DNA of 64,000 bases from Kutzneria chonburiensis. Lineage in GTDB: Bacteria > Actinomycetota > Actinomycetes > Mycobacteriales > Pseudonocardiaceae. Below are positions 47,948 through 56,869 of this stretch, in pieces. The position numbers and the translations under genes were made by a program. The notes under the pieces were generated by a model, which was not told the DNA's origin, made no database searches, and saw nothing but the letters and a program-made list of their open reading frames with translations. Numbering within the stretch: the stretch's first letter is position 1; each line of letters starts with the position of its first letter. The stretch spans positions 3,224,001-3,288,000 of the forward strand of contig NZ_CP097263.1 in NCBI RefSeq assembly GCF_028622115.1, in the 5' to 3' direction.

Positions 47948-50104
47948 ATGCCGATCCCGCACAGAGATCACCGCAGACGATGGATGACGCTACCCGCCAC
48001 GGCGTTACTGGCCACCGCCTTGGCGACCGGCGGGCCGGCGGCCGCGGTGACCCCGGCGGCCACCGCCGCCTCGGTGAGTGTGAACGCTAACAGCGCGCTC
48101 GCCACCGTGCCCGCGACGGCGATCGGGATCAACGGCTCGGTGTACGACGCCGCACTCACCGACGCCGCCGTGCCCGGACTGCTGAAGTCGGTCGGCACCA
48201 ACGTGATCCGCTTCCCCGGCGGCACGTCGTCGGACACCTACGACTGGCGGGCCAACACCGACGTCACGTCCGGCCAGCGGCAGGCGGTGGACTTCGACCA
48301 CTACGCCACGCTGCTGGGCCAGACCGGGGCGCAAGGCATGATCACCGTCAACTACGGAACCGGCGACGCCGCCGGGGCGGCGCAGAACCCGCCCGAGACC
48401 GGCGCGCAGCTGGCCGCCGACTGGGTCCGCTACGCCAACGTCACCCACCACTACGGCATCAAGTACTGGGAGATCGGCAACGAGATCTACGGCAACGGGA
48501 CCTACGGCGGCAGCTGGGAACCCGACCGGCACTGCGCCGCAGGCTCGAACCCGGCCAACTGCGGTCCGGCCGTGTACGCGCAGAACGCCAAGGCCTACAT
48601 CAGCGCGATGAAGGCGGTCGACCCCAGCATCGTGGTCGGCGTCGTGCTGACCGCGCCCGGCAACTGGCCGGACGGCCTCACCTCGGCCGGCAGCCCGCAG
48701 CCGTGGAACCAGACCGTGCTGTCCACGCTGGGCGACCAGCTGGGTTTCGCCGACGTGCACTGGTATCCGCAGAACCCGAGCAGCGTCACGCCGCCGGGGC
48801 CGACCGACGCCGGCCTGCTGAGCTCCGACGCCCAGATCCCCGGCATGGTGTCGTCGCTGCGCTCGCTGATCGGCAATGCGGTGCCGATCATGATCACCGA
48901 GACGAACTCGGTGTCGTCCAACCCCGGCAAGCAAACCGTCGGCATCGTCAACGCGCTGCACCTCGAGCAGGACTACCTCGGCTGGCTGGGTGCGGGCGTG
49001 GCCAACGTCGACTGGTGGCAGATCCACAACGGCATCGTGACCACCGGCGACAACGGCCCGTCGTTGTACGGCACCGCGAACTACGGCGACTACGGCGTGC
49101 TGTCCGACGCCAGCTGTGACGCGTCGACCGGCACGCGGTTGTGCGAGCCGGCCGTGGACACGCCCTTCCCCGCCTACTACGGACTCCAGCTGCTCGGCCA
49201 GTTCATCCACCCCGGCGACACGCTGGTGTCCACGTCCTCCAGCTCCTCGCTCGTACGGTCGTTCGCCGTGAAGAAGGCCGACGGCTCGCTGAAGGTCATG
49301 CTGGTCAACGGCGATCCGTCCACCAGCTACACGGTGAGCCTGGCGTACAACGGATTCACGCCCAGCGGCGCCACGCCGACCGTGGCCACGCTCGCCCCGC
49401 CCGGCACCGGCATTACCACGACGACGGCCGGTAGCGCGGCGTCGCAGACCATCGCGCCGTACACCGCGACCGTGATCACCCTCCAGCCCGGGACGACCCA
49501 CACCCCGCCGAGCACCCCCGGCACGCCAACCGCCACCGCCGTCACGTCGAACTCCGTCAGCCTGAACTGGACTCCATCGTCCAGTTCGAGTGGCATCGCC
49601 GGCTACGACGTGGTCCAGGTGAACGGCACCGCCGAGACGGTCGTCGCGTCCCCGGCCACGAACGCCGCCACGGTCAGCGGTCTCACGCCCGCCACCGCCT
49701 ACACCTTCGCTGTGTACGCCAAGGACACCGCCGGCACCCGCTCGGCCCGATCCGGCACCCTCGCGGTGACCACCGGTCCACCGGCGTCCGGCGGATGCAA
49801 GGCCACTTATCAGGCCAACACCTGGCCCGGCGGATTCACCGGCAACGTGACCATCACCAACACCGGCGCCACGCCATGGCCGGGCTGGACCGTGACGTTC
49901 ACGTTCGGCGGTGACCAGAAGGTCACAAATGCCTGGAACGCCACGGTCACCCAGTCCGGAGCCAAGGTCACGGCGATCAACGCCGGCTACAACGGATCCG
50001 TACCCGCTGGCGCGTCGGCGTCGTTCGGCTTCCAGGGCGTCTGGTCGAATTCGAGCGCGGCACCGACCGCGTTCTCCGTCAACGGCACGGCCTGCACGGG
50101 CTGA
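47948..50104 (+). CDS. Clan GH-A glycosidase with Fn3 and CBM2, paralogue 3
   Basis: 718 aa. Signal peptide ~1-41; barrel with YWEIGNEIYGNG (acid/base Glu) and MITETNS (nucleophile Glu), then beta-sandwich, Fn3 (~520-605) and CBM2 (~612-718, ANTWPGGFTGNVTITN). Among the three paralogues it is closest to the 18535 protein in the EIYGNGTYG region. ATG set by GAGGAG. A degenerate TGTGAACGCTAACA (12/14 to the LacI motif) lies in codons for VNANS at 48079-48092. Confidence 0.8.
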   Translation: MPIPHRDHRRRWMTLPATALLATALATGGPAAAVTPAATAASVSVNANSALATVPATAIGINGSVYDAALTDAAVPGLLKSVGTNVIRFPGGTSSDTYDWRANTDVTSGQRQAVDFDHYATLLGQTGAQGMITVNYGTGDAAGAAQNPPETGAQLAADWVRYANVTHHYGIKYWEIGNEIYGNGTYGGSWEPDRHCAAGSNPANCGPAVYAQNAKAYISAMKAVDPSIVVGVVLTAPGNWPDGLTSAGSPQPWNQTVLSTLGDQLGFADVHWYPQNPSSVTPPGPTDAGLLSSDAQIPGMVSSLRSLIGNAVPIMITETNSVSSNPGKQTVGIVNALHLEQDYLGWLGAGVANVDWWQIHNGIVTTGDNGPSLYGTANYGDYGVLSDASCDASTGTRLCEPAVDTPFPAYYGLQLLGQFIHPGDTLVSTSSSSSLVRSFAVKKADGSLKVMLVNGDPSTSYTVSLAYNGFTPSGATPTVATLAPPGTGITTTTAGSAASQTIAPYTATVITLQPGTTHTPPSTPGTPTATAVTSNSVSLNWTPSSSSSGIAGYDVVQVNGTAETVVASPATNAATVSGLTPATAYTFAVYAKDTAGTRSARSGTLAVTTGPPASGGCKATYQANTWPGGFTGNVTITNTGATPWPGWTVTFTFGGDQKVTNAWNATVTQSGAKVTAINAGYNGSVPAGASASFGFQGVWSNSSAAPTAFSVNGTACTG

Positions 50105-50143: not shown

Positions 50144-50271
50144 CCGTGTGAACACGATGTGACGCGTTCGGCCGCCCATCGACTGTTTCCGATACAAGGG
50201 GTTCACCGGACCGACCCGGCGGCGACACCGCCCACCGGTGCACTGGTCACGACCCGCCGCAGCGCGGGGCG

Positions 50272-50390
50272 CGTCTAGGGTTCCGCCGCGGCGACGCGGG
50301 TCTGGTCCGAGAGACGCAGGCGGTCCGCGCCGGTCGCGGCACCGTTCCACGGCGGGAGAAAAGCCCGGGAGGCCACTGGCCCCGGGCTGC
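50272..50390 (+). ncRNA. Guanidine-I (ykkC) riboswitch
   Basis: The conserved blocks of the ykkC/guanidine-I aptamer appear in order: CTAGGGTTCCG (50275-50285), TGGTCCGAGAG (50303-50313), ACCGTTCCACGGCGGGA (50341-50357) and AAAAGCCCGGGAG (50359-50371). The last block also forms an alternative hairpin AGCCCGGG (50362-50369) with CCCGGGCT (50381-50388), a likely expression platform: guanidine binding would hold the first strand in the aptamer and stop hairpin formation. It ends 37 nt before the permease start and identifies guanidine as the operon's substrate. Confidence 0.93.
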
Positions 50391-50426
50391 GCGCGTGGTT
50401 CGGGCTCGCATGATCCGGAGGCTGTC

Positions 50427-51953
50427 GTGAGCGTCAGACCCATGGCTGCGGAGCCGCCCTCCGCCACGGACACCAGCGACCTGTCCACCTTCGGCTACGG
50501 CCAGCAGCTGCGCCGCAAGATCGGCGGCTACGGCTCGTTCGCCGCCGGCTTCTCGTTCGTCTCCATCCTCACCACCGTGTTCCAGCTGTTCTTCTTCGGC
50601 TTCGGATTCGGCGGCCCGGCGTTCTTCTGGACCTGGCCGATCGTCCTGGTCGGACAGCTGCTGGTCGCGCTGTGCTTCGCCGAGCTGGCCGCCCGCTACC
50701 CGATCTCCGGCGCGATCTACCAGTGGGCCACCCGATTGGGCGGCCGGCTCTGGGGCTGGACCGCCGGCTGGCTGATGATGGTCGCCCAGGTGGTGACCCT
50801 GGCCGGCGCCGCGATCGCGTTGCAGGTCGTGCTGCCGCCGGTCTGGTCCGGGTTCCAACTGGTGCCCGGGGACAGCTCGTTGACCAGCCCGACCGGCGCG
50901 GCCAACGCCGTGGTGTTGGGCGTGCTTCTGCTATGCGTCACGACAGCCGTGACGGCGACCGGTGTGCGGCTGATGTCCGTGGTCAACAGCGTCGGCGTGA
51001 CGTGCGAGCTGGTCGGCGTGGCATTGCTGTGCGTTGCCCTGTTCGCCCACTCCGAGCGTGGCCCCGCGGTGGTGTTGGCGACGCAGGGCACCGCCGGGCA
51101 CAGCTACCTGTGGTCGTTCGCGGTGTCGGGCCTGATGGCGGCGTACGTGCTGGTCGGGTTCGACAGCGCGGGTGAGCTGTCGGAGGAGACCCGCGACCCG
51201 CGCCGAACCACGCCCCGCACCATCGTCCGGGCCGTGCTGGTGTCCGGGCTCGGCGGCGCGCTGATGCTGCTGGCCACGTTGATGGCGGCCGGCAGCGTGA
51301 CCGACGGCAGCCTCGGCGACCCGGCCCGCGGCCTGCCCTTCGTGCTGACCGACCGGCTCGGCGACACGCTCGGGCGGGTGTTCCTGGTGGACGTCGCGAT
51401 CGCGGTCGCGGTGTGCACCCTGGCCATCCAGACCGCCGCGACGCGGATGGTGTTCTCGATGTCGCGGGACGGCGTGCTGCCGTTCTCCTCCGGGCTCGCG
51501 GCCGTCAACCGGCGCACCGGCACCCCGGTTCGCGCCGCGGTCCTGGTCGGGGTGCTGGCGGCGGCGCTGTTGCTGGTCAACGTGGGCAATCCGGCCCTGT
51601 TCACGACGATCGCCAGCGTCTGCATCATGTTGCTGTACTTGGCCTATCTCATGGTTACCCTGCCGTTGCTGGTACGACGGCTGCGCGGCGGCCTACCGGC
51701 CCGGGCCGGCGAGTTCAGCCTCGGACGGTGGGGCGTCGTGGTCAACGTCCTGGCCGTCGGGTGGGGCGCGCTGATGGCCGTCAACCTCGGCTGGCCGCGG
51801 AGCGAGGTGTTCGATCCGGCCGGTGGCCACGTCTACCTCCAGTGGTTCGCGCCGCTGTTCTTGATCGGTGCGCTGGCCGTCGGCGGGCTGGCGTACCTGG
51901 CCCGCACCCGCCGTCCGATGATCGTCACGCTGGCGTTGGACGGTGTCGAATGA
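50427..51953 (+). CDS. APC-superfamily permease, probable guanidine importer
   Basis: 508-aa, about 12-helix amino acid/polyamine/organocation transporter (GYGSFAAGFSFVSI at helix 1, FDSAGELSEETRDPRRTTPR between helices 6 and 7). Permeases of this group accompany 'urea carboxylase' clusters. Since the operon is under a guanidine riboswitch, import of guanidine or a guanidino compound is the likely function. GTG start from GGAGG 6 nt upstream. ATGA overlap with the next gene. Confidence 0.85.
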   Translation: MSVRPMAAEPPSATDTSDLSTFGYGQQLRRKIGGYGSFAAGFSFVSILTTVFQLFFFGFGFGGPAFFWTWPIVLVGQLLVALCFAELAARYPISGAIYQWATRLGGRLWGWTAGWLMMVAQVVTLAGAAIALQVVLPPVWSGFQLVPGDSSLTSPTGAANAVVLGVLLLCVTTAVTATGVRLMSVVNSVGVTCELVGVALLCVALFAHSERGPAVVLATQGTAGHSYLWSFAVSGLMAAYVLVGFDSAGELSEETRDPRRTTPRTIVRAVLVSGLGGALMLLATLMAAGSVTDGSLGDPARGLPFVLTDRLGDTLGRVFLVDVAIAVAVCTLAIQTAATRMVFSMSRDGVLPFSSGLAAVNRRTGTPVRAAVLVGVLAAALLLVNVGNPALFTTIASVCIMLLYLAYLMVTLPLLVRRLRGGLPARAGEFSLGRWGVVVNVLAVGWGALMAVNLGWPRSEVFDPAGGHVYLQWFAPLFLIGALAVGGLAYLARTRRPMIVTLALDGVE

Positions 51954-52594
51954 GTGATGTCCTTGTCTCCCATGACATCCCGGCCGGCGCTGCGTGGTCG
52001 GTGCTGGTGCGGGCGGGCCGCGAACTCCGGCTCACCGCGCTCGGTCCCGGCGCGAACTGCTCGACGCTGCTGTTCACCGCCGGGCATCCGGTCGACCGTC
52101 TGAACGTGCCGGACACGTTGAAGGCCCAGATGTCGGCCACGATTCGGCCGCCAATGGTGTTGATGTCCGACCGCGGCCTGGCCTTGTGCTCGGTCACCGG
52201 CTCGTCGCTGCCCTGGCACGACGCCCTGTGCGGCCATTCCGCCGACGCTCGACGAGGCCTGCTCTCCGAACTGCGCAAGCACGGCCGGGACGTGGCCGAC
52301 ATCCACGGCTGTGTGAACTTCTTCGCCAAGGTGGCCACGTCCGATGACGCGGCCGGAACCCTTGCGTACCAACCGAATCACGCTTCTGCCGACGATTGGG
52401 TGGCACTGCGCACCGAGATCGACGTGCTCGCCGTGTTGTCGACCGCGCCCCATCCGCTCGATCCGCGTCAGGAGGCGCAGCCGGTGCGGGCGGAGGTCTG
52501 GGCCGCCGAACCGGCCGGTCCGGACGACCCGTCCCGGACGTTCCGCGTGGAAAGCGAACGGGCCCTGCTGCTGTCGAAGGAGGTCTTCGCATGA
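51950..52594 (+). CDS. DUF1989 protein, carboxyguanidine deiminase subunit (CgdA/CgdB-type)
   Basis: 214 aa, one of the two 'urea amidolyase-associated' DUF1989 proteins. In characterised guanidine pathways these two form carboxyguanidine deiminase, converting carboxyguanidine to allophanate and ammonia. Visible family segments: GANCSTLLF, PWHDALCGHS and HGCVNFFAKV, whose Cys/His residues may bind zinc. Coupled by ATGA to genes on both sides. Confidence 0.85.
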   Translation: MSDVLVSHDIPAGAAWSVLVRAGRELRLTALGPGANCSTLLFTAGHPVDRLNVPDTLKAQMSATIRPPMVLMSDRGLALCSVTGSSLPWHDALCGHSADARRGLLSELRKHGRDVADIHGCVNFFAKVATSDDAAGTLAYQPNHASADDWVALRTEIDVLAVLSTAPHPLDPRQEAQPVRAEVWAAEPAGPDDPSRTFRVESERALLLSKEVFA

Positions 52595-53217
52595 CCGCGT
52601 TCGACCCCGCGACCGCCGCGTTGGACACCGTTGTCGAGGCGGGCGAAGGCTTTCTCGGCCCGATCCCGGCCGGCGGCACGTTCCGCATCGTCGACCTGCA
52701 CGGCAACCAGGCCGTGGACACGCTGTTCTACGACGCCGCCGACGTGGACAACCGGTACAGCGCGTTCGACACCGTCCGTGAGCAGGGCGCGGTCTACCTG
52801 ACCACCGGTTCGCGGCTGCTGTCGACGCGACTGGACGTGTTGGCGACGATCACCGACGACACCTGCGGCCGCCACGACACGCTGGGTGGCGCGTGCGCGC
52901 AGGAGTCCAATGTGGTCCGTTATGGCACGCACACCCGTCACCAGAATGCCTGTCGTGAAACGTTTCTGCGCTACGGCGCGGCGGCCGGCATCGACGCGCG
53001 CCGACTCGGGCACAACATCAACTTCTTCATGAACGTCCCGGTGACGGCAGCCGGCGGGCTCACCTTCGTCGACGGCGTCTCCGCGCCGGGCAAGCACGTC
53101 CAGGTGCGGGCCGAGCGAGATCTGCTGGTGCTGATCAGCAACTGCCCACAGGTCAACAACCCTTGCAACGGCTGGAATCCCACCCCCGTGCGACTGCTGG
53201 GCTGGTGGCCGGTATGA
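52591..53217 (+). CDS. DUF1989 protein, second carboxyguanidine deiminase subunit
   Basis: 208 aa, paralogue of the preceding protein. FRIVDLHGNQAVDTLFYDAAD, DTCGRHDTLGGAC and ISNCPQVNNPCNGWNPTPVR are the family hallmarks; the conserved Cys/His set is more complete than in the first subunit, so this is probably the catalytic one. ATGA overlaps at both ends. Confidence 0.87.
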   Translation: MTAFDPATAALDTVVEAGEGFLGPIPAGGTFRIVDLHGNQAVDTLFYDAADVDNRYSAFDTVREQGAVYLTTGSRLLSTRLDVLATITDDTCGRHDTLGGACAQESNVVRYGTHTRHQNACRETFLRYGAAAGIDARRLGHNINFFMNVPVTAAGGLTFVDGVSAPGKHVQVRAERDLLVLISNCPQVNNPCNGWNPTPVRLLGWWPV

Positions 53218-55250
53218 CCGTCATCGACCACGGCGTGCGGGCCGCGACCGTCACGGTCCTCGCGGCCGGCACGCAGACCACCGTGCAGGATCTGGCCGGT
53301 CGCGGCGGCCTATGGGACGTCGGCGTGCCGCCGTCCGGGGCCTGGGACGACTTGTCTTTCGCTCTGGCCAACGCCGCCGTGGGCAACCCGCCGTCGGCCG
53401 CGGGGCTGGAAGCCGTGGCAACCGGCCCGGTGCTGCGGTTCGACCGCAGGGCAACGGTGTGCGTCACCGGGTCGGCGCATCAGGCCACTGTGGACGGTCG
53501 TCTGCTTCGGCCAGGCGTGGTCACTGTCGTCGGCGCGGGTTCGGTCGTCGACGTCGGCCCCTGCGGCGCGCCGGGCTTCCGGGCCTATCTCGCGATCGGC
53601 GGTGGCATCGCGGTGTCACCGGTGTTCGGCAGCCGGGCGACGTTCCTGCTCGGCAAGTTCGGCGGCCTCGACGGCCGAGCACTGACGGTCGGCGACGCGA
53701 TCCCCTTGGGGCGTGAGGAAAACCTCGCGGTTCCGGTGGACGTCGCGGCCGTGTTGCCAACGCTGGGATCGACCTGGACCGTCCGCGTGCTGGCCGGTCC
53801 GCACGGCGCGCCGGAGCACCTCACCGAAGCCGGTGCCACCGCGCTGCTGGCGGCGACGTGGACGGTCGATCACCGGGCCGACCGCACCGGCGTCCGGCTG
53901 GTCGGCCCCCGGCCGGATTGGGCGCGGCCGGACGGCGGCGAGGCCGGTCTGCATCCGTCCAACATCCACGACAGCGCCTACCCGATCGGCGGCATCATGC
54001 TGTCCGGCGACACCCCGGTCGTGGTCGGGCCGGACGGGCCCAGTCTCGGTGGTTTTGTCGTGCCCTACACGGTGATCCGGGCCGATCGCTGGATGTTCGC
54101 CCAGGCCCGGCCGGGCGACACCGTCCAGTTGGTGCTGGTGTCCCCGGACGAGGCCGATGCCGTCAACGCCGAGCGTGACGCGCTGCTGGCCGACCCGACC
54201 CGTGCCGTGTCCGATGCGTTCGAGCGATCGCTGGCCGGCGTGCCCGCACCGCGTTCGGCCCCGCCGAGCATCCGTCCCGACCTGCTGCGCGATCACGGTT
54301 TGTTGCTGTCCCGGTCCGCCACGGCGGACGCCCCCGCGGTCGTCGTTCGACGCGCCGGCGATCACCACGTTCTCCTGGAGGCCGGCCCGCCGCGGCTTGA
54401 CCTGCGCGTTCGACTGTGGGTGCATCTGCTCGCGCGGTCGCTGCGGGGCTCCGCCGTCGTCGGCGTCCGGGAGATCGTCGAAGGCGTGCGGTCACTGCTG
54501 GTGCGGGTCGACCCCATCGCCTGTCCGCTGCCGCACATCGCCGATGTGCTGGACCACCTGGCCGACGGCCTGCCCGATCCGGCGGCCGTCACCCTGGACG
54601 TGCGCGAGGTGACCCTGCCGATCGCGTTCGACCACCCGGCCGCGCACGAGGCGATGGCCCGCTACGCCCGGTCGGTTCGGCCGGACGCGCCGTGGTGTCC
54701 GGACAACGTCGAGTTCATCCGGCGGGTCAACGCGCTGGCCGAGCGGGACGACGTCTTCGACATCGTGCGGGACGCGACCTATCTCGTGGTCGGCCTCGGC
54801 GACGTGTACCTCGGCGCGCCCGTGGCCATTCCCCTCGATCCCCGGCACCGGCTCGTCACCACCAAGTACGACCCGGCCCGCACCTGGACACCGCAGAACG
54901 CGGTCGGCATCGGCGGCGTGTACCTCTGCGTGTACGGCATGGAAGGCCCCGGCGGCTACCAGCTCGTCGGCCGCACCGTGCCGGTCTGGCGACATGTCCC
55001 CGACGTCGCCGAACCGCCGTGGCTGCTGCGGCAGTTCGACCGGCTGCGGTTCCGGCCGGTCAGTGTCGAGGAGCTGGCCGACCTGCGAGCCGACATCCTC
55101 GCCGGCCGGTCCACATTGGACACCCGAACGGCGGAGTTCGGTCTGGCCGAGGTCACCGCACTCGAGGACCGACATGCCGAGGAGATCGCCCGCTTCCGGA
55201 ACGCGCGTGAGGCGGCCTTCGCCGCCGAGCGGGAAAGGTGGCGGGCATGA
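53214..55250 (+). CDS. Carboxyltransferase-only guanidine/urea carboxylase
   Basis: 678 aa covering only the two carboxyltransferase halves (KipA-like, residues ~10-300, VQDLAGRGGLWDVGVPPSGAWDD; KipI-like, ~320-610, with the C-terminal GIGGVYLCVYGMEGPGGYQLVGRT). Full guanidine/urea carboxylases are about 1200 aa: biotin carboxylase, carboxyltransferase, biotin carrier. Here the protein starts at the first carboxyltransferase boundary and stops (AFAAERERWRA) just where the biotin-carrier domain, with its AMKM lysine motif, should begin. Clean ATGA overlaps at both ends argue against recent decay. It would need biotin carboxylase and carrier proteins in trans. Confidence 0.88.
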   Translation: MTVIDHGVRAATVTVLAAGTQTTVQDLAGRGGLWDVGVPPSGAWDDLSFALANAAVGNPPSAAGLEAVATGPVLRFDRRATVCVTGSAHQATVDGRLLRPGVVTVVGAGSVVDVGPCGAPGFRAYLAIGGGIAVSPVFGSRATFLLGKFGGLDGRALTVGDAIPLGREENLAVPVDVAAVLPTLGSTWTVRVLAGPHGAPEHLTEAGATALLAATWTVDHRADRTGVRLVGPRPDWARPDGGEAGLHPSNIHDSAYPIGGIMLSGDTPVVVGPDGPSLGGFVVPYTVIRADRWMFAQARPGDTVQLVLVSPDEADAVNAERDALLADPTRAVSDAFERSLAGVPAPRSAPPSIRPDLLRDHGLLLSRSATADAPAVVVRRAGDHHVLLEAGPPRLDLRVRLWVHLLARSLRGSAVVGVREIVEGVRSLLVRVDPIACPLPHIADVLDHLADGLPDPAAVTLDVREVTLPIAFDHPAAHEAMARYARSVRPDAPWCPDNVEFIRRVNALAERDDVFDIVRDATYLVVGLGDVYLGAPVAIPLDPRHRLVTTKYDPARTWTPQNAVGIGGVYLCVYGMEGPGGYQLVGRTVPVWRHVPDVAEPPWLLRQFDRLRFRPVSVEELADLRADILAGRSTLDTRTAEFGLAEVTALEDRHAEEIARFRNAREAAFAAERERWRA

Positions 55251-56869
55251 GCCACGACGTGCGCACCGCGCTGAAACTGGCCGCCGAGATCGACCAGCCC
55301 GCCTTCATCACACTGCTGGACGACGCGCCGGACGGGTCGGACGGCCCGCTCAGCGGAATTCCGTTCGCAGTCAAGGACAACATCGACATCGCCGGCGTCC
55401 CGACCACCGCCGCCTGCCCGGACCGCACGGAACCGGCGGCGCGGACGGCGTTTGCCGTTGAGCGGTTGCGGGCCGCCGGTGCGGTGCCGATCGGCAAGAC
55501 GAACCTGGACCAGTTCGCCACCGGACTGGTCGGGACCCGATCGCCGTACGGGGCGTGCCACAGCGTGGCGTCCGCCGCGCACGTCAGCGGTGGCAGCAGT
55601 TCCGGCAGCGCGGTGGCCGTCGCGCTCGGCGTCGTTCCGTTCGCGCTCGGCACCGACACCGCGGGCAGCGGACGGGTGCCGGCGGCGTTCAACGGCCTGG
55701 TTGGCGTGAAGCCGACCCGTGGTCTGGTGTCCACCCGTGGCGTCCTGCCGGCGTGCCCGTCGCTGGACTGCGTGACGACGCTGACCCGTGCCGTCTCGGA
55801 CGCCCGGCCGGTGCTGGCGGCGTTGACCTGTCACGATCCGGCCGACCCGTACTCACGGCCGATGCCGCCGCGACTCCCCCACGGCGTGGCGGCTCGGATG
55901 CGGGTGGTCGCGATCCCTGACCGGCCCCTGGACCTCGATCCGGCGTACGAGACCGCATGGGCCGCCGCGGTGGACCGTCTCAAGCTTGTCGCCCACGTCG
56001 TGCCCGTGGACGTCGAGCCGTTCCTGGCGGCGGCGCGGCTGTTGTACGGCTCGGCGCTGGTCGCCGAACGGCTGGCCGCGTTCGGCGACCAGTTGGACGG
56101 CCCCGGGGTGGATCCGACCGTACGGCAGATCGTGTTGGCCGGCAACGGTTTCCCCGCAGCCGAGGTGTTCGCCGCCCACCGTGAACTGGCCCGGCTGCGG
56201 TCGATCGCGGAACGGACCTTCGTCGGAGCGGACGCCCTCCTGCTGCCCGTGACACCGGGGCATCCGACACTGGCCGACGTCGCCGCCGATCCGGTCGGGG
56301 CGAATGCGCGGCTGGGCGTGTTCACGAACATGGTGAACCTGTTCGACCTGTGCGCGGTCGCGGTGCCGGCCGGCGAGGCCGACGGCCTGCCGTTCGGCGT
56401 GCAGTTGATCGCGCCCGCCTTCGCCGACGCACCGCTGCTCGACCTGGCGGCCCGCTGGACCGGCGAGGCCGAACCGCCGATCGTCGAACGGTGCCTGCTG
56501 GCGGTCGCCGGAGCCCACCTCACCGGTCAGCCCGCCAACGCCGACCTCGTCCGGCTCGGCGGCACCTTGCACAGCCGGGCCCGGACGGCCGCGGGCTACC
56601 GTATGTACACAGTGGACGGACCGTTTCCGCGACCAGGTCTGGTCGCGGGCGACGGTCCGGGCGGTTTCGAGGTAGAGGTGTGGGACCTGCCGGCCGCTGC
56701 CGTCGGCGGTCTGCTGCCTGGCATCGCGCCGCCGCTGCACCTCGGGCCGCTCGGGCTGGACGACGGCACGACGGTGCTCGGCTTCGTCGCGGACACCGGC
56801 TGCGCCGATCCGACCCGGGAGATCAGCCGACACGGCGGCTGGCGAGCCTATCTTGCCGACCGCGCTTGA
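55247..56869 (+). CDS. atzF: Allophanate hydrolase
   Basis: 540 aa. Amidase-signature domain (1-~410) with Lys43 (AVKDNIDIAG), cis-Ser near 117-118 (SGGSSSGS) and nucleophile Ser141 (GTDTAGSGR), plus the C-terminal allophanate hydrolase domain (~430-540, ending DPTREISRHGGWRAYL). It hydrolyses allophanate to CO2 and ammonia, the final step of guanidine or urea use. ATG chosen at 55247 in an ATGA overlap. Its last 47 nt overlap the convergent DUF2306 gene. Confidence 0.92.
   Translation: MSHDVRTALKLAAEIDQPAFITLLDDAPDGSDGPLSGIPFAVKDNIDIAGVPTTAACPDRTEPAARTAFAVERLRAAGAVPIGKTNLDQFATGLVGTRSPYGACHSVASAAHVSGGSSSGSAVAVALGVVPFALGTDTAGSGRVPAAFNGLVGVKPTRGLVSTRGVLPACPSLDCVTTLTRAVSDARPVLAALTCHDPADPYSRPMPPRLPHGVAARMRVVAIPDRPLDLDPAYETAWAAAVDRLKLVAHVVPVDVEPFLAAARLLYGSALVAERLAAFGDQLDGPGVDPTVRQIVLAGNGFPAAEVFAAHRELARLRSIAERTFVGADALLLPVTPGHPTLADVAADPVGANARLGVFTNMVNLFDLCAVAVPAGEADGLPFGVQLIAPAFADAPLLDLAARWTGEAEPPIVERCLLAVAGAHLTGQPANADLVRLGGTLHSRARTAAGYRMYTVDGPFPRPGLVAGDGPGGFEVEVWDLPAAAVGGLLPGIAPPLHLGPLGLDDGTTVLGFVADTGCADPTREISRHGGWRAYLADRA

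Follow-up and report, generated by a model that had tools for sequence, protein, structure and literature searches.

A guanidine-I riboswitch in Kutzneria chonburiensis heads a probable guanidine-assimilation operon whose carboxylase is a carboxyltransferase alone

How can guanidine be carboxylated by an operon that encodes no biotin-carrying or biotin-carboxylating protein? The question is raised by a 64-kb stretch (the window) of the genome of Kutzneria chonburiensis (10.41 Mb, a single contig), in which a guanidine-I (ykkC) riboswitch is followed by genes for an APC-family permease, two DUF1989 proteins, a member of the urea/guanidine carboxylase family and an allophanate hydrolase. The 'carboxylase' is a carboxyltransferase (CT) only, which was overlooked in an earlier note on this DNA. 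We consider it somewhat better than an even bet that this is a guanidine-induced operon for the use of guanidine nitrogen, with a split carboxylase that takes carboxy-biotin in trans from a protein with biotin carboxylase (BC) and biotin carrier (BCCP) domains.

The riboswitch, which the earlier note had recognised from its conserved blocks, was confirmed by a covariance-model search: Rfam family RF00442 is matched above its cut-off and over its full length (model positions 1-107, E 6.3e-10 in the window). This is the only Rfam match at gathering level in the window; no other family reached E<=1 between 50150 and 50450, and a search of the whole genome returned the operon aptamer as its single match. 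The gene order given in the same note is borne out by NCBIfam and Pfam matches (Table 1), and the assignment to guanidine assimilation is supported by the presence of two UAAP1/UAAP2-type DUF1989 proteins together with an allophanate hydrolase that passes the TIGR02713 cut-off and has both expected domains. The five genes overlap by ATGA at each of their four junctions, and their reading frames are free of internal stops. In group alignments, the UAAP2/CgdB-like protein retains the conserved Cys, His and Asn motifs, and the UAAP1/CgdA-like protein of Kutzneria is about 25 residues shorter than the others.

The CT scores 759 bits against TIGR02712, below the cut-off of 1303.85. Because the match spans only positions 444-1107 of the 1201-position model, the BC and BCCP domains must be absent from this protein, and neither was found elsewhere in the operon or in the window. 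Active-site residues were numbered as in K. lactis by alignment to the urea amidolyase structures 3va7 and 5i8i, positions being counted on the alignment. In the accessible parts of the relevant papers, Asp1584 is described as required, with Asp1330 in addition for guanidine carboxylase (PMC11410670), Asn at the 1330 site as the mark of urea carboxylase (PMC12186494), and Lys1605 as the probable general base of carboxyl transfer (PMC5770610). The equivalent residues of the window CT are Met262 (1330), Asp530 (1584) and Lys551 (1605). It thus has the two general catalytic residues, and at 1330 neither the guanidine-type Asp nor the urea-type Asn. Met is found at this position in all 42 rows of the clade to which the protein belongs (40 distinct loci, since L047 = L084 and L049 = L083, drawn from both the relatives and the class sample described below), and the other 68 rows have Asp (66) or Asn (2). 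Asp1584 is present in 110 of 110 rows and Lys1605 in at least 95% of each group; the solved structures of PxpB type lack both. It is worth adding that one fused actinomycete enzyme (L057, genome G012) has the urea-type Asn1330 and yet is adjoined by two DUF1989 genes, an exception to the guanidine/urea split.

The earlier note had assigned guanidine, and not urea, as the substrate. Guanidine holds as the signal, but as a statement about the enzyme the claim was too strong: since the CT departs from the Asp1330 rule and has no BC or BCCP, it is regulation and the surrounding genes, and not the enzyme, that point to the substrate. The alternative that the operon serves urea takes its support from the database names, TIGR02712, TIGR03424, TIGR03425 and TIGR03428 all being described as parts of a 'urea carboxylase system'. 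It is very improbable, given that the guanidine-I riboswitch accompanies nearly the whole clade (see below), that residue 1330 is not the urea-type Asn, and that the DUF1989 deiminases have no role in urea use in the known pathway.

The CT-only form is widespread. GTDB contigs were scanned with a six-sequence alignment, and the best 80 of 568 relatives were kept. The first 34 of these (L083-L116; 57-91% identity) are all from actinomycetes, namely Kutzneria, Amycolatopsis, Planosporangium, Goekera, Blastococcus, Pseudonocardia, Nocardioides, Kribbella, Yinghuangia, Actinokineospora, Actinospica, one Streptomyces and several metagenome-assembled genomes (MAGs); the closest named records are Kutzneria sp. 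CA-103260 and K. buriramensis. The other 46 are not actinomycete, and have BC in 43 cases and BCCP in all 46. The contigs of the three without BC (L130, L138, L143) start at the CT or immediately ahead of it; as BCCP is present, these loci were left out of the CT-only set. Across the clade (40 distinct loci), flanks of up to 10 kb around the CT, some contigs being short, contained no BC or BCCP. Most of the clade loci keep both DUF1989 proteins and the allophanate hydrolase. A draw of 394 genomes across the class gave 25 with a CT match at E<=1e-150, in 27 loci: three belong to the Met clade, 12 are CT-only with Asp at 1330, and 12 have frames of at least 1205 aa, of which six were confirmed as BC-CT-BCCP and six are taken as such from their length. 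L171 was grouped as CT-only, its pyruvate-carboxylase-like gene being several kb from the CT. A search of plasmids gave only relatives below 60% identity.

This distribution bears on the suggestion that the operon was once of the usual guanidine carboxylase kind and is now in decay, its BC and BCCP having been lost. Missing domains, and the residues gone from the first DUF1989 protein, would suit such a history, but the 40 distinct loci, in many genera, retain the CT-only gene, its catalytic residues and the riboswitch, and the reading frames in the window are intact and overlapping. Decay is disfavoured, and we give it very little chance.

The allophanate hydrolase that follows the CT in Kutzneria sp. 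CA-103260 (L049/L083) is a distant one (442 bits, against about 1025-1085 in two other Kutzneria) and lies on the opposite strand, apparently a gene replacement.

The linkage of the Met-type CT to the riboswitch is close. RF00442 was searched in 57 genomes, 36 with a Met-clade CT and 21 with Asp/Asn-type homologues only (12 CT-only, 9 fused), and was found above cut-off in 35 of the 36 against none of the 21. The sole miss (G455) is on a contig that begins at the permease. In all 30 loci that were placed by script, the element precedes the first gene in the same orientation, at a distance of 33-305 nt from its first matched residue, and in the other five (the window, G053, G038, G142 and G073) it is likewise directly upstream.

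Table 1. Features of the guanidine-I riboswitch leader and the operon that follows it in the window.
Feature	Position	Strand	Evidence
Guanidine-I (ykkC) riboswitch aptamer	50264..50373	+	Rfam RF00442, 67.9 bits (cut-off 63)
Hairpin, aptamer 3' GCCCGGG pairing with CCCGGGC	50363..50388	+	coordinates from sequence
Shine-Dalgarno GGAGG of permease	50417..50421	+	sequence; 5 nt before GTG start at 50427
APC-family permease, candidate guanidine importer	50427..51953	+	TIGR03428, 686 bits (cut-off 740); PF13520
DUF1989 protein, UAAP1/CgdA-like	51950..52594	+	TIGR03425, 182 bits (cut-off 206); PF09347
DUF1989 protein, UAAP2/CgdB-like	52591..53217	+	TIGR03424, 293 bits (cut-off 285)
Carboxyltransferase, urea/guanidine carboxylase family, 678 aa	53214..55250	+	TIGR02712, positions 444-1107 of 1201
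Allophanate hydrolase, amidase and C-terminal domains	55247..56869	+	TIGR02713, 593 bits (cut-off 511); PF01425, PF21986

Trees of the CT give an indication of how the short form arose. A tree of 73 rows sets the Met clade apart by a branch with support 100. The second CT-only group (12 loci from a single family of the order, with Asp1330 kept) is in the same tree a clade (99) inside the fused actinomycete enzymes, which implies that it has lost its BC. Secondary loss was first assumed for the Met clade too, and was weakened by one rooted tree of the N-terminal half (59 rows, PxpC/KipA homologues as outgroup), where the first split among urea/guanidine CTs separates the Met clade (100/99) from a group of all the others (91/89, with long branches). 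From this sister position, the BC-less state may be original. Either order, loss of BC or never having been fused, is possible. The fuller version of our proposal, that a riboswitch-governed BC-less CT lineage, perhaps never fused, uses carboxy-biotin from the alpha subunit of the acyl-CoA carboxylases to carboxylate guanidine, is held tentatively, at rather less than even weight.

Four of the Asp-type CT-only loci (L051, L166, L171, L176), which have two DUF1989 genes and form one clade, have no permease in the region examined, and no allophanate hydrolase turned up in their genomes at E<=1e-90.

If the CT is a biotin-dependent enzyme, where is its partner? The genome has five BC domains that score highly on the urea carboxylase model, all of them within larger proteins. 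Since the BCs of acyl-CoA carboxylases reach 557 bits on this model, a dedicated BC could not be excluded by score, and it was the BC tree that excluded it: urea-carboxylase-type BCs form one clade (100/99), and the Kutzneria five all fall outside it. Among them, one clusters with AccA3-like proteins of about 600-640 aa and another with a group resembling pyruvate carboxylase, both labels being a reading of domain order and length. A BC-BCCP gene of AccA3 type, 595 aa, is at C1:6464117-6465904 of the genome. In ten other clade genomes, 19 stretches with BC genes contained no urea-type BC among the model matches listed. The idea that a missing BC is governed by a second riboswitch was also considered and rejected, as the genes tested at extra guanidine-I elements included no BC. 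They encode ATP-binding cassette (ABC) importers, isochorismatase-family hydrolases, a 2-oxoglutarate (2OG) dioxygenase, a luciferase-like monooxygenase and glutamine-synthetase-like proteins; extra elements are also present in G478 (L185) and G479 (L186; 62.9 bits, just below the cut-off).

Some of these extra elements are worth describing. In two Frankiales MAGs, the element is followed by a 2OG-Fe(II) dioxygenase (a Pfam match at L179:3241-4278, and its homologue at L181:5134-6186), which recalls the methylguanidine dioxygenase described in the accessible text of PMC12508155. Such elements also lead Opp/Dpp-type ABC importer clusters (L179:5083-8808, L183:566-6983 and L184:4835-10801), which add an isochorismatase-family hydrolase and/or a glutamine-synthetase-like gene and may represent a further pathway for guanidino compounds.

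The source of carboxy-biotin is therefore sought in trans, there being no BC or BCCP in the operon while the carboxylation pathway is kept. The allophanate hydrolase supports carboxylation, because allophanate can only be formed after a carboxylation step. The likeliest source is an AccA3-type protein, since mycobacteria share AccA3 among several CT subunits: it is the one alpha subunit common to three acyl-CoA carboxylase complexes (PMC11001197, PMC4347857, accessible parts). The mycobacterial arrangement, one AccA3 BC-BCCP for several CTs, thus provides a model for the Kutzneria CT, with the difference that the mycobacterial AccD CTs are not homologous to the CT of urea carboxylase (PMC3199775). 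By this analogy, the partner of the CT is probably the AccA3-type alpha subunit. A further precedent is given by the BC-less Asp-type CTs, whose origin within the fused enzymes (99) was a separate event.

The proposed route would then run as follows. Binding of guanidine to the aptamer, which is assigned by homology, would allow expression past the overlapping hairpin, and the APC permease would bring guanidine in. The CT would move a carboxyl group to guanidine, its presumed substrate, from carboxy-biotin made in trans by a BC-BCCP protein encoded elsewhere, most likely the AccA3-type alpha subunit. By comparison with the characterised route (carboxyguanidine, deimination, allophanate hydrolysis; PMC12186494, PMC12508155, accessible parts), the two DUF1989 subunits would deiminate carboxyguanidine to allophanate, and the allophanate hydrolase would free ammonia and CO2.

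A number of observations weigh against this proposal. Met262 breaks the published Asp1330 rule (PMC11410670, accessible part), and columns conserved in the fused enzymes are changed in the Met clade, for example Asn221 to Arg and Cys283 to Val; an Arg at 221 is PxpC-like, and is present in two PxpC-type structures. The first DUF1989 protein and the permease score below their NCBIfam cut-offs. Allophanate hydrolase is absent at E<=1e-90 from four of the 12 Asp-type CT-only genomes (G042, G215, G378, G296) and from one Met-clade genome (G464), so that a CT with DUF1989 proteins does not always imply the full pathway, and two Met-clade genomes (G467, G477) carry a fused enzyme in addition. The CT-only proteins may serve another role in some hosts. 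AccA3 is universal in actinomycetes, and its co-occurrence with the CT is therefore uninformative. Both the interaction of the CT with a partner and the activity of all the members are predictions made from sequence. In folds of 28 leaders, finally, accessibility of the Shine-Dalgarno sequence (SD) did not differ between bound-like and unbound-like states (mean 0.28 versus 0.30).

Several of these points would also suit a CT that is no longer biotin-dependent, and that carries out with the DUF1989 proteins some other ATP-dependent activation of guanidine or a guanidino compound, in the manner of PxpB/PxpC. PxpBC and KipI-KipA have homologous CT folds that are not fused to BC, are made as separate subunits, and form a separate clade, the outgroup of the tree. 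The deviation of Met262, Arg221 and Val283 from the fused enzymes, the lack of BC and BCCP in the operon, and the four Asp-type CT-only genomes without allophanate hydrolase are all in keeping with it. In the five outgroup KipI/KipA-type loci retrieved, a BC gene is close by in three, one of which also gives a BCCP match; L207 and L209 have no BC in the vicinity. However, Asp1584 and the general base Lys1605, both missing from PxpB-type proteins, are kept in the clade, and most of its CTs stand beside an allophanate hydrolase, which needs a carboxylated product. The window CT scores 131 bits against the PxpC equivalog (cut-off 500) and 35 bits against PxpB (cut-off 146), below both. We regard a biotin-free enzyme as unlikely.

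The invariant Met could instead form a hydrophobic pocket for some other true substrate, a substituted guanidine or other urea-like compound, with guanidine only the inducer or a product. The rule would lead one to expect Asp (guanidine) or Asn (urea) where the whole clade has Met, and the guanidine riboswitches of the Vreelandella operon also govern the use of methylguanidine (PMC12508155). Against this, in the accessible text of the same paper, guanidine-I is specific for guanidine as against methylguanidine in the single case examined, and the window operon has no extra processing enzyme. We consider a different substrate improbable, and retain guanidine as the presumed substrate of the split carboxylase.

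The earlier note also put forward the permease as a candidate guanidine importer. The suggestion fits what is seen here but is not new: in comammox Nitrospira, a guanidine-induced APC permease headed by guanidine-I has been proposed to import guanidine (PMC11410670, accessible part). The family has its own NCBIfam model, TIGR03428 ('permease, urea carboxylase system'), which the window protein matches over positions 1-472 of 475 with a score short of the cut-off (740.45), as a close relative would. Five clade loci (L088, L095, L112, L114, L164) have no APC permease in the operon. Three of the genomes with such loci (G452, G475, G073) have a second guanidine-I element, which stands at the head of an Opp/Dpp-type ABC cluster. 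G458 has a cluster of this type further downstream, in the orientation of the operon and with no element of its own found, and in G477 no ABC cluster was found in the stretch examined. A homologue of the permease is encoded elsewhere in G452 (44%), and there is none at E<=1e-60 in the other four. An import role fits the replacement of the permease by an ABC cluster in these loci, and we infer that the APC permease imports guanidine.

The expression platform is less clear. The earlier note described an overlapping terminator-like hairpin; the hairpin is real and does overlap the 3' end of the aptamer, but it is followed by no U-run and is not a canonical intrinsic terminator, so that 'terminator' is unproven. 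No terminator-like site was found between 50100 and 50500. Complementarity of the GCCCGGG type at 7 of 7 positions is present in the window, and 25 of the 29 leaders compared show it, although these rows are related to each other and the chance of each 7/7 row in shuffled sequence is 0.07-0.19. A run of at least four T is seen in only one of the 29, the other 28 having no U-run. The hairpin is likely to be the expression platform. A translational relay, running from the 3' end of the aptamer through elements A and B to the SD, was considered and rejected on the folding of 28 leaders: the release model did no better than with shuffled linkers, and in the window leader the accessibility of the SD moved the wrong way for release, from 0.63 to 0.21. 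Folds of the leader by RNAalifold and as single strands were uninformative (whole-leader z-score -0.50).

Downstream of the operon is a gene for a DUF2306 membrane protein, on the opposite strand. Ahead of the riboswitch, the protein encoded at 47948-50104 has a C-terminal part resembling the exoglucanase CbhB, and a weak match to arabinosylfuranosidase.

How does this locus compare with known systems? In Raoultella, Klebsiella, Vreelandella and Pseudomonas, guanidine carboxylase, CgdAB and allophanate hydrolase are under guanidine-I or guanidine-II control, with the same DUF1989 pair, CT family and allophanate hydrolase. Those carboxylases are however BC-CT-BCCP proteins with Asp1330, mostly accompanied by ABC importers, whereas Kutzneria has a CT only, Met1330 and an APC permease. 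The comammox Nitrospira operon has guanidine-I directly before an APC permease, as in Kutzneria, but degrades guanidine by a Ni guanidinase and not by the carboxylase route (PMC11410670). The permease-urf1-urf2-'urea carboxylase'-amidase operon of Mycobacterium smegmatis and others, regulated by GlnR/AmtR, has the Kutzneria gene set (PMC4222082, PMC3662644), with protein regulators in M. smegmatis in place of a riboswitch (PMC4222082). The accessible part of that account mentions neither guanidine nor a missing BC (PMC4222082), and the effector of AmtR is described there as neither urea nor the amino acids tested (PMC4222082, PMC3662644). In the literature searched, we found no mention of a BC-less guanidine carboxylase or of Met1330; most subscription papers were outside the search, and prior notice is possible. 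The idea of the permease as importer is already in print; the real interest of the locus is the CT-only, Met-type, riboswitch-linked clade.

For genome surveys, the consequence is that the Asp/Asn rule, when used to count guanidine degraders, misses this riboswitch-linked Met group; and a guanidine site based on Met, if such it is, would break the rule itself. The Met clade is a candidate early branch for the assembly of urea and guanidine carboxylases. Guanidine or its products become candidate effectors of AmtR, the repressor of the M. smegmatis gene set (PMC4222082, accessible part). If our proposal is true, the operon would encode part of a split biotin carboxylase that acts on a substrate other than a CoA compound, through a biotin subunit borrowed from and shared with another enzyme, and nitrogen scavenging in soil actinomycetes would be tied to the biotin machinery of fatty-acid and lipid synthesis.

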